Assembly: GCF_018409545.1 (NCBI RefSeq)
Contig: NZ_AP024563.1
Location: 1-64,000, forward strand
Length of the DNA: 64,000 nt
DNA from: Allochromatium tepidum
Lineage (GTDB): Bacteria > Pseudomonadota > Gammaproteobacteria > Chromatiales > Chromatiaceae
Reading direction: 5' to 3'
Made by a program: the position numbers and the translations under genes. The notes under the pieces were generated by a model, which saw only the letters and a list, made by a program, of their open reading frames with translations, searched no databases and was not told where the DNA came from. Shown piece by piece: positions 2,715 to 59,987 of this stretch. How positions within the stretch are numbered: position 1 is the first letter of the stretch; the number at the start of each line of letters is the position of its first letter.

Positions 2715-2730
2715 TGTTCCACGTGGAACA
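2715..2730. promoter_or_regulatory. parS site 1 (ParB binding)
   Basis: The perfect 16-base palindrome TGTTCCACGTGGAACA matches the bacterial chromosomal parS consensus, the site where ParB loads for origin segregation. It lies between dnaN and the conserved part of recF. Three identical copies follow within 1.2 kb, which makes chance occurrence very unlikely. Confidence 0.9.
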
Positions 2731-2782
2731 CTCAGACGCCGTTTCAGAGTCTCCCGGTCCGGCGTTTCACGGATCACGCTCG

Positions 2783-3883
2783 ATGTTCCACGTGGAACAT
2801 TCGGGCGTGGATCCTGAACCTGGACTGCATTCACTTCGCATCGAGTCGCTACGCAACATCCGACGGCTCGATCTCGCCCTCGATACTCGGACGCTGCTGC
2901 TGACGGGGGCCAATGGCGCCGGCAAGACCAGTGTTCTGGAAGCCATCTATCTGCTGGCGCGCGGCCGGACCTTTCGTGGAACCAAGGCCGGACCGCTCAC
3001 TACTCAGGGCGAGTCATATACCCGCATCGAGGGTGTCTATCAACCATCCAACCATGACGCGGTGCGCCTCCGCTATGTCAAGGAAGGCGCCACGGCTTCA
3101 CGTGACATCCATCCGCCGCTGTGGCCGGAGACCGGCGGCGCGGATTGGCGCTCACCCTTGCAGGTCAAGCTGGTCGGCGAGAACGCCCAAACCCTGCTCG
3201 ACGGCGAGCCGAGTCTGAGACGTCGTTTCCTGGATTGGAATGTGTTCCACGTGGAACATCGTTTCGCTCAGATCCACAAGGATTTCACGCGCGTTCTGAT
3301 GCAGCGCAATGCGGCCATTCGGTCGGGCCGCGGTCAGCATGGGCTATGGGATCGCAGTTTCATTGCACTGGCCGAATCCATGGATCGCCGGCGTGCCGCG
3401 TTCCACGCCGAATGGCGTGCGTGCTTTCTGGATCTGCGTGATGACTACCCGTTTTTGCAGGGCGTCGATCTGCGCTATCGACGCGGTTGGCCGGATGGTC
3501 GGGAGCTGGGCGAGACCCTGGCGTCACTGGCGGATCAGGAGCCGGCACGCGGCTATACCCTGGCCGGTCCGTCACGCGCCGACTTTCGTGTCGAGCCGGG
3601 GGAGGGGAGACGCGGCTTTTCGCGCGGACAGGCCAAGATCGTGGTCGCGCTGCTGCAACTGGCGGCTGAGTGCGTCCATCGTGCGCATGGGCGAGAGCCT
3701 GTGATCTGGCTGCTCGATGATCTCGAAGCCGAGCTGGATCGCACCATGGCCGAGCGGTTGTGGAACGCCTTTGGTTCCACGGGGAATCAGATCATCGCGA
3801 CGCGCGTGGCGACCGATGGCGATCCGGGGATCTTTGCCGATACGGAGTCGCTGGCGATGTTCCACGTGGAACATTCCGAGTGA
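2783..3883 (+). CDS. recF: DNA replication and repair protein RecF
   Basis: RecF is an SMC-like ATPase that helps load RecA at single-strand gaps. Walker A (LLTGANGAGKTSVLEAIY) lies near the N-terminus; the ABC signature region and the Walker B stretch WLLDDLEAELD are in the C-terminal third. The start is uncertain. ATG at 2714 gives 389 residues, ATG at 2783 gives 366, and a GTG at 2807 gives 358. Family similarity begins at LHSLRIESLRNIRRLDL, so 2783 or later fits the usual length of about 360 best. Two parS sites in the coding region each encode FHVEH (the central LDWNVFHVEHRF and the C-terminal LAMFHVEHSE), and both upstream candidate starts are themselves parS copies read as MFHVEH. No gyrB follows. 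Confidence 0.95.
   Translation: MFHVEHSGVDPEPGLHSLRIESLRNIRRLDLALDTRTLLLTGANGAGKTSVLEAIYLLARGRTFRGTKAGPLTTQGESYTRIEGVYQPSNHDAVRLRYVKEGATASRDIHPPLWPETGGADWRSPLQVKLVGENAQTLLDGEPSLRRRFLDWNVFHVEHRFAQIHKDFTRVLMQRNAAIRSGRGQHGLWDRSFIALAESMDRRRAAFHAEWRACFLDLRDDYPFLQGVDLRYRRGWPDGRELGETLASLADQEPARGYTLAGPSRADFRVEPGEGRRGFSRGQAKIVVALLQLAAECVHRAHGREPVIWLLDDLEAELDRTMAERLWNAFGSTGNQIIATRVATDGDPGIFADTESLAMFHVEHSE
2784..2799. promoter_or_regulatory. parS site 2 (ParB binding)
   Basis: Second exact copy of TGTTCCACGTGGAACA, 69 bases after the first. It overlaps the ATG at 2783 that is a candidate recF start, so ParB binding here would cover the start region of recF. Confidence 0.9.
3243..3258. promoter_or_regulatory. 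parS site 3 (ParB binding, inside recF)
   Basis: Third exact 16-base copy, inside the recF reading frame. It encodes VFHVEH in a stretch (LDW-VFHVE) conserved in many gammaproteobacterial RecF proteins, so the site and the protein motif constrain each other. Confidence 0.9.
3858..3873. promoter_or_regulatory. parS site 4 (ParB binding, recF 3' end)
   Basis: Fourth exact 16-base copy, covering the last codons of recF (MFHVEH) just before the stop at 3881-3883. Confidence 0.9.
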
Positions 3884-54596: not shown

Positions 54597-55811
54597 TCAG
54601 CGCCCCTTGTTGAGGCTTTCCTGAAGCAGGGCACCGAAGCTGCCCATGGTCTTCTCAGCCGGCTTGGCCGCCGGCGGCTTAGTGACGGCGACGACCACGG
54701 CGGCCGTTGGATCGACCTCGCGGCTCTCGTCGAGCGAGAGACTGATACGCCGCCGCTCCAGATCCACGCCAAGCACGGTCGCCGTCACCTCATCGCCTTC
54801 CTTGAGCACCTCGCTCGGATGCTGGACGCGCCGACCGGCGCCCAGTTCGCTGATATGGACCAGGCCATCGACACCGGGCGCCAGCTCGATGAAGGCGCCG
54901 AACGGCTGCAAGCGCGCGACACGGCCCTGAATGCGCGTGCCGGCCGGGAACTGCTCGATGGCGTCGAGCCAGGGATCGCGGCTCAGGGCGCGGATGGAGA
55001 GCGCGATCTTCTCGCGCTTCTTGCCGTCGGTCGCCGGCTCGATGCGCAGCACACTGACCTCGACCTGCCGGCCGGGCTGCAACACCTCCTTGGGGTGCTT
55101 GACGTGGCCGAAGGCGAGCTGGCTGATGTGGATCATGCCCTCCAGTCCGCCGAGATCGACGAAGGCGCCATAGTCCTTGAGCGAGGTCACGGTGCCGGTG
55201 AGGACCGCGCCTTCCTTGAGCTGGGCGCGCAGTTCCTCGGCCTTGATGCGCTGTTCTTCTTCCAGTAGCGCGCGGCGCGAGACCACCAGATTGGGCCGAC
55301 GTCCGCCCTCGAACTTGGTGATCCGGAAGTCGAGCTTCCGGCCGACGAATTCGGACAGATCCTCGATGAAGCGGATATCGATCTGCGAGGCCGGGCAGAA
55401 GGCACGGATACCGGCGACCCGGACCTCGCACCCGCCCTTGACCGCGCCCGTCACCTGACCCTGGACCGGCAGGCCCTGACGATAGGCGCGTTCGAGTTCG
55501 TCGAGACCATGGTATTTGTGCCCATGCTGGCTGCCGAGCAGCAGCATCCCGCTCTCTTCGTCCTTGCCGGTGACATGGGTCTCGACGGTGTCGCCGACGG
55601 CGTACTTGAGTTGGCCCTCGGCGTCGCGGATCGCGGCCAGATCGAGCCGACCCTCGGACTTGGCGCCCAGGTCGACGAAGGCGAACTCCTCGCCGATCGC
55701 GATCAGGGTGCCGCTGACCTTGTCGCCCACGGTCGGCTCACCTTTCTGGGCCTGTGGATGGGTCTGGTCGAACTCGTTGAGCAGATCTTCGAAGCTTGCG
55801 GACTCGGACAT
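54597..55811 (-). CDS. S1 RNA-binding domain protein (four S1 repeats)
   Basis: RNA-binding protein of 404 residues with four S1/OB repeats beginning near residues 28, 112, 197 and 285 (GTVTSLKDYGAFVDLGGLEG is the clearest). The C-terminal tail is Ala/Lys/Pro-rich. It is shorter than ribosomal protein S1 of E. coli (557 residues, six repeats), so it is an S1-like protein rather than RpsA itself. The adjoining gene hemW is unrelated. Confidence 0.85.
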   Translation of the reverse strand: MSESASFEDLLNEFDQTHPQAQKGEPTVGDKVSGTLIAIGEEFAFVDLGAKSEGRLDLAAIRDAEGQLKYAVGDTVETHVTGKDEESGMLLLGSQHGHKYHGLDELERAYRQGLPVQGQVTGAVKGGCEVRVAGIRAFCPASQIDIRFIEDLSEFVGRKLDFRITKFEGGRRPNLVVSRRALLEEEQRIKAEELRAQLKEGAVLTGTVTSLKDYGAFVDLGGLEGMIHISQLAFGHVKHPKEVLQPGRQVEVSVLRIEPATDGKKREKIALSIRALSRDPWLDAIEQFPAGTRIQGRVARLQPFGAFIELAPGVDGLVHISELGAGRRVQHPSEVLKEGDEVTATVLGVDLERRRISLSLDESREVDPTAAVVVAVTKPPAAKPAEKTMGSFGALLQESLNKGR

Positions 55812-56356: not shown

Positions 56357-58540
56357 CTAAACGGCTTCCAGCCGTGCATAGGTCAGCACCAGCCATTTGG
56401 CCCCGACGCTGCCCTTGAAGTCGATCTGGATACGTGCCTGGGCGCCGCGTCCTTCGCTGTTGAGCACCACGCCCTCGCCGAACTTGGGATGACGCACGCG
56501 CTGGCCGAGCCGGTAGCCTGCGGGCGCCTGGGCGCCGGCCGAATGCTTGGCCGGACTACCGATAGCGGATTTCGGCGCAAACGCCGGCCGGGCGACACCG
56601 CCGCCGCGGACTTCCTCGATCAATTCGGGCGGGATCTCGCGCAGGAAGCGCGACGGCGCCGGATATTCCTCGCGTCCATAGAGCCGCCGACTCTCGGCCT
56701 GAGTGAGATAGAGCCGGCGCATGGCGCGCGTCATGCCGACGTAGCACAGCCGCCGCTCTTCCTCCAGCCGCGCCGGATCGTCAGCCGAGAGGCTGTGCGG
56801 AAACAGCCCTTCCTCCATTCCGGCCAGGAACACCAGCGGAAACTCCAGCCCCTTGGCGCTATGCAGCGTCATGAGCTGCACGCTGTCCTCGAACGGATCG
56901 GCTTCAGCCTCGCCGGCCTCCAGCGCGGCATGGGCCAGGAAGGCACCGAGCGGATCGCCTTCCTCGTCGGACAGATCCTGCTCGAACCGGCTGACGGTCT
57001 CGACGAGCTGCTCCAGGTTCTCGATCCGATCCTGCCCCTTGCCGTCCTTGCTGTTCTTAAAGTGCTCGATCAATCTGGTCACTTCGATCACGCGGTCAGC
57101 GATTTCGCTGAGCGCGCGACCCTCACTCGCTTCACGCTGACTATCGATCAGATCGAGAAAGCCGCGTAGCGCGTTGCTCGCGCGCGGGCTGAATGCCCCG
57201 CTCGTGCTGAGTTCGCGCGCCGCTCGCCACAACGAGACGCCGGCCGCACGTGCCTGCTCACGCACCAGATCGACCGTGCGCTCACCGATGCCGCGTGTAG
57301 GCAGGTTCACCACCCGCTCGAACGAGGCATCGTCGTCCGGATTGGCGATCAGACGCAGATAGGCGAGCGCGTCGCGGATCTCGGCACGCTCGAAGAAACG
57401 CAGCCCACCATAGACCCGATAGGGGATACCGGCCTGGATCAGCGCTTCCTCGAACAGCCGTGACTGGGCCGTGGTGCGGTAGAGGATGGCGCATTCATCG
57501 CGCCGATGCCCCTCGTCGATGAAGCGGCGAATGCGCTCGATGACGAAGCGCGCCTCGTCGACCTCGTTGAAGGCCGTATAGAGGCGGATCGGCTCACCGG
57601 CGTCGTCCTGGGTCCAGAGGTTCTTGCCCAGTCGCGTGGGGTTGTTGGCGATCAGCGCATTGGCGGCGGCCAGGATGGTGCCGGTGGAACGGTAGTTCTG
57701 TTCCAGCCGGATGGTTTGGGTCGTCGGGTAGTCCTTCTGGAACGACTGGATGTTCTCGACCTTGGCCCCGCGCCAGCCGTAGATGGACTGATCGTCGTCG
57801 CCGACGGCGAACAGATGATTGTCGCTGCCGGCGAGCAGACGCAGCCAGGCGTACTGGATGGCATTGGTGTCCTGGAACTCGTCGACCAGGATATGAGCGA
57901 AGCGTCGCTGATAATGACCGAGGATGTCCGCCCGCTCGCGCAGCAGCTCCAACGTGCACAGCAGCAGATCCGCGAAGTCGAGCGACCCACTGCGAATGCG
58001 CGCCGTTTCGTATTCGCGATAGACCGCGATCATCTTGTCCCGAACGAAGTCGCCGGTCTCGGACAGGTGATGCGGACGCAGTCCCTCGTCCTTCTGGCGA
58101 TTGATGAAGCCCTGGATCTGACGGGGCGGCCAGCGGGCCTCGTCGATCTGCATCTCCTTGAGCAGGCGCTTGATGAGCCGAAGCTGATCGTCCGAGTCGA
58201 GGATCTGGAACTGCTGGGGCAGACCCGCATCCTGCCAGTGCGCGCGCAGAAAGCGATGGGCGAGACCATGGAAGGTACCGACCCACATGCCGCCGACCGG
58301 AGTGCCGAGCATCTCGTCGAGTCGACCGCGCATCTCGCGTGCGGCCTTGTTGGTGAAGGTGACGGCCAGTATCGACCAGGGCTGGACCTGTTGGACCTGA
58401 AGCAGCCAGGCGATGCGGTGAACGAGCACGCGCGTCTTGCCCGATCCGGCACCGGCAAGGATCAGCAGATGGCCGGGATCGGCGGAAACGGCTTCGCGTT
58501 GCGCCGCGTTGAGTGAGTTGAGCAGGGGGGAAACGTCCAT
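56357..58540 (-). CDS. uvrD: DNA helicase II UvrD
   Basis: Superfamily 1 helicase of 727 residues acting in mismatch and excision repair. Motifs in order: Q-motif LNAAQREAV, Walker A LILAGAGSGKTRVL, motif II LVDEFQDTN, motif III VGDDDQSIYGWRGA, motif IV RLEQNYRS, and motif VI CYVGMTRA. The C-terminal Tudor-like end is GQRVRHPKFGEGVVLNSEG. It reads away from the AT-rich origin-like region. Confidence 0.97.
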   Translation of the reverse strand: MDVSPLLNSLNAAQREAVSADPGHLLILAGAGSGKTRVLVHRIAWLLQVQQVQPWSILAVTFTNKAAREMRGRLDEMLGTPVGGMWVGTFHGLAHRFLRAHWQDAGLPQQFQILDSDDQLRLIKRLLKEMQIDEARWPPRQIQGFINRQKDEGLRPHHLSETGDFVRDKMIAVYREYETARIRSGSLDFADLLLCTLELLRERADILGHYQRRFAHILVDEFQDTNAIQYAWLRLLAGSDNHLFAVGDDDQSIYGWRGAKVENIQSFQKDYPTTQTIRLEQNYRSTGTILAAANALIANNPTRLGKNLWTQDDAGEPIRLYTAFNEVDEARFVIERIRRFIDEGHRRDECAILYRTTAQSRLFEEALIQAGIPYRVYGGLRFFERAEIRDALAYLRLIANPDDDASFERVVNLPTRGIGERTVDLVREQARAAGVSLWRAARELSTSGAFSPRASNALRGFLDLIDSQREASEGRALSEIADRVIEVTRLIEHFKNSKDGKGQDRIENLEQLVETVSRFEQDLSDEEGDPLGAFLAHAALEAGEAEADPFEDSVQLMTLHSAKGLEFPLVFLAGMEEGLFPHSLSADDPARLEEERRLCYVGMTRAMRRLYLTQAESRRLYGREEYPAPSRFLREIPPELIEEVRGGGVARPAFAPKSAIGSPAKHSAGAQAPAGYRLGQRVRHPKFGEGVVLNSEGRGAQARIQIDFKGSVGAKWLVLTYARLEAV

Positions 58541-58554
58541 CGGGCGATTTTAAA

Positions 58555-58810
58555 CCGACGACCTCTTAATAACTATCTTATATAGATATAAAGATAGTAG
58601 TTATAAGGTCTGTGGATAAGTGGATAAGTCTGATTTTTCAATATTGATCAGTGTGTTGAGAGCAAAGACGGCTGTGGATAACCTGTGAGTGAAATGTGCA
58701 TAGAAAACACCCTGATTTTTTGCGCACACATTATCAACAAGTTATCCACAGGGTTTTCAACAGGTTATCCATTTTCAAGTCATTGATTTTCAAGATTAAA
58801 ATTTAGCCCA
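58555..58810. other. Probable chromosomal replication origin (oriC)
   Basis: An AT-rich stretch of about 250 bases in a G+C-rich genome. It contains three perfect DnaA boxes: TTATCCACA at 58742-58750 on the plus strand, and its complement TGTGGATAA at 58611-58619 and 58673-58681. Single-mismatch boxes lie at 58619-58627, 58695-58703 and 58731-58739, and a weaker one at 58765-58773. An unwinding-type element at 58565-58608 is almost pure A/T and holds an inverted repeat (ACTATCTT/AAGATAGT). TGATTTTT-like runs recur at 58631, 58713 and 58785. Gene direction changes from minus to plus across this gap. Caulobacter has its origin next to hemE, as here. Confidence 0.88.
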
Positions 58811-58922
58811 CAATCTACGCCTTCGACAGTTCTCGCGCAAGGGCGTACCCGAGAGCCCTCGCCGTAGTAGAATGCACGGCTCGACCCCTGGTTTTCACCC
58901 CATTCAAGATCGAGCCCGATTC

Positions 58923-59987
58923 ATGACCCAGCTGCAAAACGACACCTTCCTGCGCGCCCTGATGCGCGAACCCGTTGATTACACACCGGTTTGGATGATG
59001 CGCCAGGCCGGACGCTATCTGCCCGAGTACCGTGCCGCGCGCGCCAAGGCCGGCAGCTTCATGGATCTGTGCAAGAATCCGGAGCTGGCCTGCGAGGTCA
59101 CGCTCCAGCCGCTCGAGCGCTATCCGCTCGATGCCGCCATCCTGTTCTCCGACATCCTGACCGTGCCCGATGCCATGGGCCTGGGTCTGTACTTCGCCGA
59201 AGGCGAGGGTCCGAACTTCGAACGCCCGGTGCGCACAGCCGCCGACGTCGAGAAACTGCCGATCCCGGACCCGGAAGGCGAACTGAAGTACGTGATGGAC
59301 GCCGTCTCCACCATTCGCGGCGCGCTCAACGGCCGCGTGCCGCTGATCGGCTTCTCCGGCAGCCCCTGGACCCTGGCGACCTACATGGTCGAGGGCAGCG
59401 GCGGCAAGAATTTCTCCAAGATCAAGGCGATGATGTTCGACCAGCCGGCGCTGCTGCATCGCCTGCTGGAAAAGGTCGCCGACTCGGTGACCACCTACCT
59501 CAACGCCCAGGTCGCACGCGGCGCCCAGGCGACCATGATCTTCGACACCTGGGGCGGCTCGCTGGCGCCGGCCAACTATCGCGAGTTCTCGCTGGCCTAC
59601 ATGCAGCGCGTGGTCGAGGGTCTGACCCGCGAGGCCGAGGGCCGCAAGGTGCCGGTGATCCTGTTCACCAAGAACGGCGGTCAGTGGCTCGGCGACATGG
59701 CCAAGACCGGCTGTGACGCACTCGGCGTCGACTGGACCACGGATCTGGCCGATGCGCGCCGGATGGTCGAGGATCGGGTCGCGCTCCAGGGCAACATGGA
59801 CCCCTGCACCCTCTATGCCTCGCCCGAGCGCATCCGTGAAGAGGTCGCACGCGTCCTGGCCAGCTATGGTCACGGCTCGGGCCATGTCTTCAACCTGGGC
59901 CACGGCATCACCACGGACGTCGATCCCGAGCGCCCGGCGGCCATGATCGCCGCCGTGCACGAGCTCAGCCGCGCCTATCACGCCTGA
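58923..59987 (+). CDS. hemE: Uroporphyrinogen decarboxylase
   Basis: HemE converts uroporphyrinogen III to coproporphyrinogen III in heme and bacteriochlorophyll synthesis. The 354-residue product has [16 protein letters not shown], the catalytic-region [26 protein letters not shown], and [14 protein letters not shown] near the end. The ATG at 58923 gives [24 protein letters not shown] at 58868-58873 could be its -10. It lies directly beside the putative origin. Confidence 0.97.

Follow-up and report, generated by a model that had tools for sequence, protein, structure and literature searches.

Where does chromosome replication start in this bacterium of the Allochromatium group? The genome comprises 3,384,614 bases (3.38 Mb), and its chromosome contig, C1 (3,208,690 bases), begins at dnaA. 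A group of DnaA boxes is found far from that gene, in the gap between uvrD and hemE, and the original prediction took it for a chromosome origin on the hemE side. The window, that is, the whole stretch of DNA analysed (64,000 nt), includes both locations. The features at the uvrD-hemE gap are as follows.

56357-58540, minus strand: uvrD (DNA helicase II; NCBIfam NF008743, 1136.8 bits against a cut-off of 965), whose 5′ end bounds the putative origin
58541-58922: putative oriC, the entire uvrD-hemE intergenic region up to the probable hemE start, with the box cluster and AT-rich element kept in relatives
58560-58610: putative duplex-unwinding element, AT-rich and forming an imperfect inverted repeat with 20-nt arms (80%)
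58593-58606, minus strand: DnaA-trio-like stretch TTATAACTACTATC, separated from the tandem DnaA boxes by 4 nt (GACC)
58611-58619, minus strand: perfect DnaA box on the uvrD side, facing the unwinding element
58619-58627, minus strand: DnaA box with one mismatch, in tandem overlap with the box at 58611
58673-58681, minus strand: perfect DnaA box
58731-58739, plus strand: DnaA box with one mismatch, opening an array of 11-12 nt spacing
58742-58750, plus strand: perfect DnaA box
58754-58773, plus strand: two degenerate boxes (58754 and 58765) with two mismatches each, extending the 11-12 nt array on the hemE side
58923-59987, plus strand: hemE (uroporphyrinogen decarboxylase; NCBIfam TIGR01464, 439 bits), in a reading frame open from 58872

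The true hemE start is probably 58923, because the HemE alignment of many more distant relatives begins only at residue 14-19. On the other side of uvrD, a 404-aa protein with S1 RNA-binding repeats (54597-55811, minus strand) resembles ribosomal protein S1. It falls under the cut-offs of the ribosomal S1 models among the matches listed and is above the cut-off of the CvfD/GSP13 S1-domain model.

Boxes were scored against a strict consensus, TTATCCACA; a looser one, TTWTNCACA, was matched by eye. The three perfect boxes lie exactly at the positions first claimed for them (58611, 58673 and 58742). The further claim of at least three single-mismatch boxes holds under TTWTNCACA (58619, 58695, 58731 and 58754) and fails under the strict consensus, by which only 58619 and 58731 have one mismatch while 58695, 58754 and 58765 have two. 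The predicted AT-rich element is also present: 58541-58871 is 60% AT against 35% for the window, and the richest 50 bp, from 58564, reach 78%.

The clustering of DnaA boxes in this gap, a hallmark of oriC, exceeds chance. The window contains nine boxes with at most one mismatch, where shuffled sequences average 3.2 and none of 100 reaches nine; five of the nine are in the uvrD-hemE gap. Genome-wide there are ten perfect boxes, eight of them on the chromosome contig; three fall within 140 bp of uvrD-hemE gap sequence, and the chance of such a grouping among the eight is about 3e-7. Apart from the uvrD-side cluster, a scan in 300-bp windows for boxes with at most one mismatch reveals no cluster in 849 kb contiguous around dnaA. 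The same is true of 400 kb in each of three relatives, G001, G005 and G007. In all four regions the next best groups score 2, compared with 8-10 for the uvrD-side cluster. None of 26 stretches of the source genome, each of up to 20 kb (six inside the 849 kb), has a group scoring 3 or more; the remainder of the chromosome was scanned for perfect boxes only.

Conservation of the cluster and of the adjoining DNA

A HemE search of 55 genomes matched 51, and 30 of these 51 loci were examined. At least two boxes are grouped between uvrD and hemE in nine of the 30 loci (G000, G002, G003, G004, G005, G025, G029, G030 and G033). The clusters are weaker in G025 (one perfect and two one-mismatch boxes), G033 (two perfect and one one-mismatch) and G030 (two perfect). 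In G011, uvrD adjoins hemE, yet the gap has no boxes. In G001 and G007, hemE is elsewhere in the genome, and a triplet with the identical 62/69 spacing lies at the 5′ end of uvrD; the departure of hemE may have been a single shared event or two. One more genome, G133, was retrieved by the triplet pattern, and its cluster likewise lies between uvrD and hemE. The cluster on the 5′ side of uvrD is thus found in 12 genomes: seven of the eight in the genus, and five from other genera of the family. The eighth member of the genus, G006, has both uvrD and hemE but a perfect cluster at the 5′ end of neither, and no dnaA was found in its draft assembly. A lack of box conservation among close relatives, which the original prediction regarded as fatal to its reading, is therefore not what is seen.

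Because the gap separates two divergent genes, its boxes might alternatively make the promoters of uvrD and hemE responsive to DnaA and play no part in an origin. We find this extremely improbable. The cluster stays in place where hemE is gone (G001 and G007), and the clade would then be left without a recognisable origin in the sampled regions. A scan of the gap for sigma-70 promoters and terminators also found none, although this is a weak test, with 0.5 of each expected by chance. There is no Rfam match at gathering score in the gap that would indicate an RNA gene.

The DNA beside the boxes has a layout of the unwinding type. On the minus strand, at the uvrD side, the overlapping boxes TTATCCACTTATCCACA are followed by GACC, then by TTATAACTACTATC and then by the AT-rich imperfect inverted repeat. 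The order of box, short spacer, trio-like triplets and AT-rich DNA is kept in all 12 cluster genomes. The uvrD-side box is perfect in 11 of them and has one mismatch in G033; in six, the source genome included, it belongs to a tandem of overlapping boxes. Across the 12 genomes the spacer is short and mostly GC-rich, and the next stretch is rich in [CT]T[AT] triplets, starting about 13 nt from the box in G003 and G005. Summed over the 12 sequences, two triplet counts, 46 and 45, compare with shuffled means of 28.0 and 24.6 and are above all 2000 mononucleotide shuffles, the sequences being kin and hence not 12 independent observations. A TACTA-like core, picked after the alignment had been viewed, is present in all 12, compared with 3.0 on average after shuffling.

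According to PMC8287927, the basal unwinding system consists of a DnaA box, a spacer of at most 16 nt and at least three consecutive trios with a conserved middle base. Judged by that description, the present site resembles an oriC of the Bacillus subtilis type in the order of box or boxes, short spacer, trio-like repeats and AT-rich DNA. It differs in that it does not lie beside dnaA and in that its trio run is imperfect: in the source genome it is interrupted beside the box, and three consecutive motifs as defined in that paper are not clearly present.

In the proposed mechanism, DnaA would occupy boxes on either side and extend from the tandem uvrD-side boxes across GACC onto the trio-like strand. 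The AT-rich inverted repeat at 58560-58610 would then be melted, and the replicative helicase would presumably load there and allow initiation.

The dnaA-dnaN gap and a putative relocation

Two features at the other end of the window are relevant to the question of whether the origin lies near dnaA.

1463-1549: dnaA-dnaN gap, the inferred ancestral origin site, short here and without boxes
2715-3873: four parS sites, TGTTCCACGTGGAACA (at 2715, 2784, 3243 and 3858), in the dnaN-recF region, the genome's only exact matches to TGTTNCACGTGNAACA

As originally claimed, neither the dnaA-dnaN gap nor the dnaN-recF gap contains a box with at most one mismatch. To place this in the family, the 260 nt past the dnaA stop were surveyed in 28 genomes. 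Such boxes are present in none of the ten uvrD-cluster genomes (G030 aside) and in 16 of the 18 others (G030 included), the two exceptions being G028 and G054. The distribution of the uvrD cluster thus mirrors that of the dnaA-dnaN boxes, G030 excepted. G010 and G013 lack any perfect box within 1 kb of uvrD. The boxes past the dnaA stop form an inverted pair in 12 of the 18 genomes, 45-46 nt start to start (36-37 nt between), and in many of them TAATAATAA-like repeats and AT-rich DNA come next. In a wider survey of 210 genomes of the family, the strict triplet was found in eight, the strict 36-37-nt pair in 52 and both in none. Chance and kinship alone could yield this lack of overlap, which is support and not proof, and the position of the pair relative to dnaA is established only for genomes among the 28.

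Given the conserved box array, the trio-like stretch with its AT-rich DNA, the lack of a rival cluster in the sampled regions and the lack of dnaA-dnaN boxes in the clade, we consider it very probable, on sequence grounds, that chromosome replication in this bacterium starts from the uvrD-hemE gap, which would be its oriC. In a search of the literature on Chromatiaceae and Allochromatium origins, no title or abstract opening among the matches listed reports a uvrD-side origin. The site may already have been predicted in DoriC.

The parS sites are about 55 kb from the putative origin, and in G001, G005 and G007 parS likewise lies within 15 kb of dnaA. Upstream of dnaA, the gap continues across the contig end to a gene identified by eye as rpmH; it contains one perfect box (C1, 3208630-3208638) and no array. 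Several relatives carry a similar lone box, which probably serves dnaA autoregulation.

These features could also indicate that the origin remains with dnaA or next to it, for instance in the upstream gap, and that the uvrD cluster is a site of DnaA titration or control, comparable to datA and DARS in E. coli. The sole parS sites and the lone upstream box would fit such an arrangement, as would KOPS polarity in G001 and G007, which turns at dnaA or within about 11 kb of it. However, the dnaA-dnaN gap is devoid of boxes in all ten cluster genomes other than G030, one upstream box does not make an array, and a titration site would presumably not need the unwinding-type layout of the uvrD cluster. 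We therefore think it unlikely that the origin has stayed with dnaA.

If the uvrD-hemE gap is the origin, the next question is how it came to be there. In a HemE+DnaA tree of 27 genomes (with G133, G006 and G026 placed by HemE alone), 11 cluster genomes, G030 and G006 form one group with 100/100 support; G009, G013, G015 and G047, all with dnaA-dnaN boxes, are absent from the tree. The clear states, uvrD cluster versus dnaA-dnaN, require one change on this tree, in a count that omits G006, G026, G028, G054 and G030 and scores G016, G018 and G022 as dnaA-dnaN type though they are without the standard pair. If G030 and G006 are counted as unlike the cluster genomes, three changes are needed for the cluster label. 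G030 itself sits at the base of the cluster group, where the branching order is unresolved. It holds boxes and trio-like DNA in both the uvrD-hemE and the dnaA-dnaN gaps, and these two gaps align in one direction, from the outer box to the AT-rich stretch, with a modest score (z 4.1). By eye, the uvrD-hemE gap of G030 (its contig C1, 2883351-2883922, L053) also has a direct repeat of the AT-rich stretch (AAATATATTAAYTCA) near the DnaA boxes.

Because the clear states are one change apart on the tree and G030 carries both, these data suggest that the origin moved once from the dnaA-dnaN gap to the uvrD side, in the ancestor of the Allochromatium clade. The uvrD-side site would, most simply, have taken over a single time from the older dnaA-dnaN origin, while dnaA and parS would have remained at the old location. 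The two kinds of site are collinear, with an outer box and then box, trio and AT-rich stretch, which suggests that the uvrD-side origin may have arisen by copying of the dnaA-dnaN one. Their local alignments, however, score only modestly, with z values from -0.2 to 14.4 against mononucleotide shuffles, values that are inflated by the shared boxes. The putative dnaA-dnaN origin of other Chromatiaceae (G010, G013, G027 and others) shares the layout of box, trio-like repeats and AT-rich DNA, but it reads towards dnaN and has the inverted pair with 36-37 nt between, often with longer TAATAATAA runs, whereas the uvrD-hemE site reads towards uvrD and has the 62/69-nt triplet. A more specific scenario, in which one jump passed through a two-origin stage and present-day genomes of the G030 kind have two chromosomal origins in use, or had them until recently, appears doubtful to us.

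Strand asymmetry around the cluster

A switch of strand asymmetry usually accompanies an oriC, though it does not define one, and would be expected at the cluster if that is the origin. GC skew and KOPS polarity, the latter assumed from E. coli to be the right signal for this group, turn at the uvrD cluster in none of the four genomes tested. In the source genome, 212 KOPS sites in 1.25 Mb of sampled sequence give the best origin fit at -85 to -100 kb; the fit is 14.8 log units worse at the cluster (+60 kb) and 10.3 worse at dnaA. Over the 849-kb region the GC minimum falls at -343 kb, so that a GC-skew minimum elsewhere, named with the original prediction as a refutation, is nominally present. 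Third-position gene skew by strand, when binned, changes sense at about -100 kb, in agreement with KOPS and not with the cluster. With dnaA at 0, G001 has its cluster at -97 kb, its GC minimum at -31 kb and its KOPS minimum between -12 and +0.5 kb. For G007, the cluster lies 157 kb and the KOPS minimum 7-11 kb upstream of dnaA, with the GC minimum 67 kb downstream. G005 has a GC minimum 17 kb from the cluster and a KOPS minimum more than 100 kb away. A search for a dif site by consensus, allowing up to three mismatches, gave no match.

Taken at face value, the KOPS likelihood maximum and the shift in third-position skew would place the origin of the source genome at another site, such as one about 85-105 kb before dnaA, which would have to use non-consensus boxes. 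Such a location is very unlikely, as no near-consensus box cluster is present from -85 to -105 kb and the turning point varies between species in a rearranged region. Synteny shows the surroundings split into many blocks between species, several of them inverted. Since the region is so heavily rearranged, we give the skew little weight and do not take it as a refutation of the uvrD-hemE origin, although it counts against that reading and is the main objection to it. Rearrangement may have left a patchwork of polarity around the origin, and another possibility is that the mismatch is a relic of the older dnaA-side origin. A single simple inversion was considered as an explanation and set aside: the synteny has many small rearrangements, from which no one event could be reconstructed.

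Comparison with other origins

The hemE neighbour recalls Caulobacter, whose origin, Cori, lies between hemE and COG1806 according to PMC1914354. Both sites adjoin hemE and have DnaA boxes and an AT-rich stretch; here, the other neighbour is uvrD, and the cluster tracks uvrD rather than hemE. No exact match to the CtrA site TTAA-N7-TTAA was found in 58401-58950. A Caulobacter-type hemE origin was accordingly rejected, and the analogy looks coincidental, because the cluster stays with uvrD where hemE has moved (G001 and G007). Of the initial claim, the location away from dnaA is supported, and the hemE-side character is not.

The oriC of E. coli lies between mnmG and mioC, tens of kilobases from dnaA. 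Both it and the present site are gammaproteobacterial and tens of kilobases from dnaA; other genes flank the site here. There is also no sign of Dam/SeqA-type control, because 58541-58922 contains only two GATC sequences (58646 and 58908).

As read here, the site is of an ordinary kind, a DnaA-type origin; what is unusual is its address, and its interest lies in a well-recorded relocation. Origins are generally thought hard to move. One family seems to hold the states before (dnaA-dnaN) and after (uvrD-hemE) such a move, together with a candidate in-between state (G030). The steps of relocation, and the separation of the origin from parS and dnaA, thereby become testable in harmless cultured phototrophs such as Allochromatium. 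For assemblies of this kind, "position 1 = dnaA" need not mark the origin, and strand skew may misplace it.

Further box arrangements occur in the family. In G054, which has no boxes past the dnaA stop, two perfect boxes lie 35 nt apart upstream of dnaA (L074, 3288-3331), perhaps a third origin address in this group. In G011, G176, G181 and G184, two copies of the inverted DnaA-box pair are present on different contigs, and the second copy could possibly be an origin-like site or belong to a secondary replicon.
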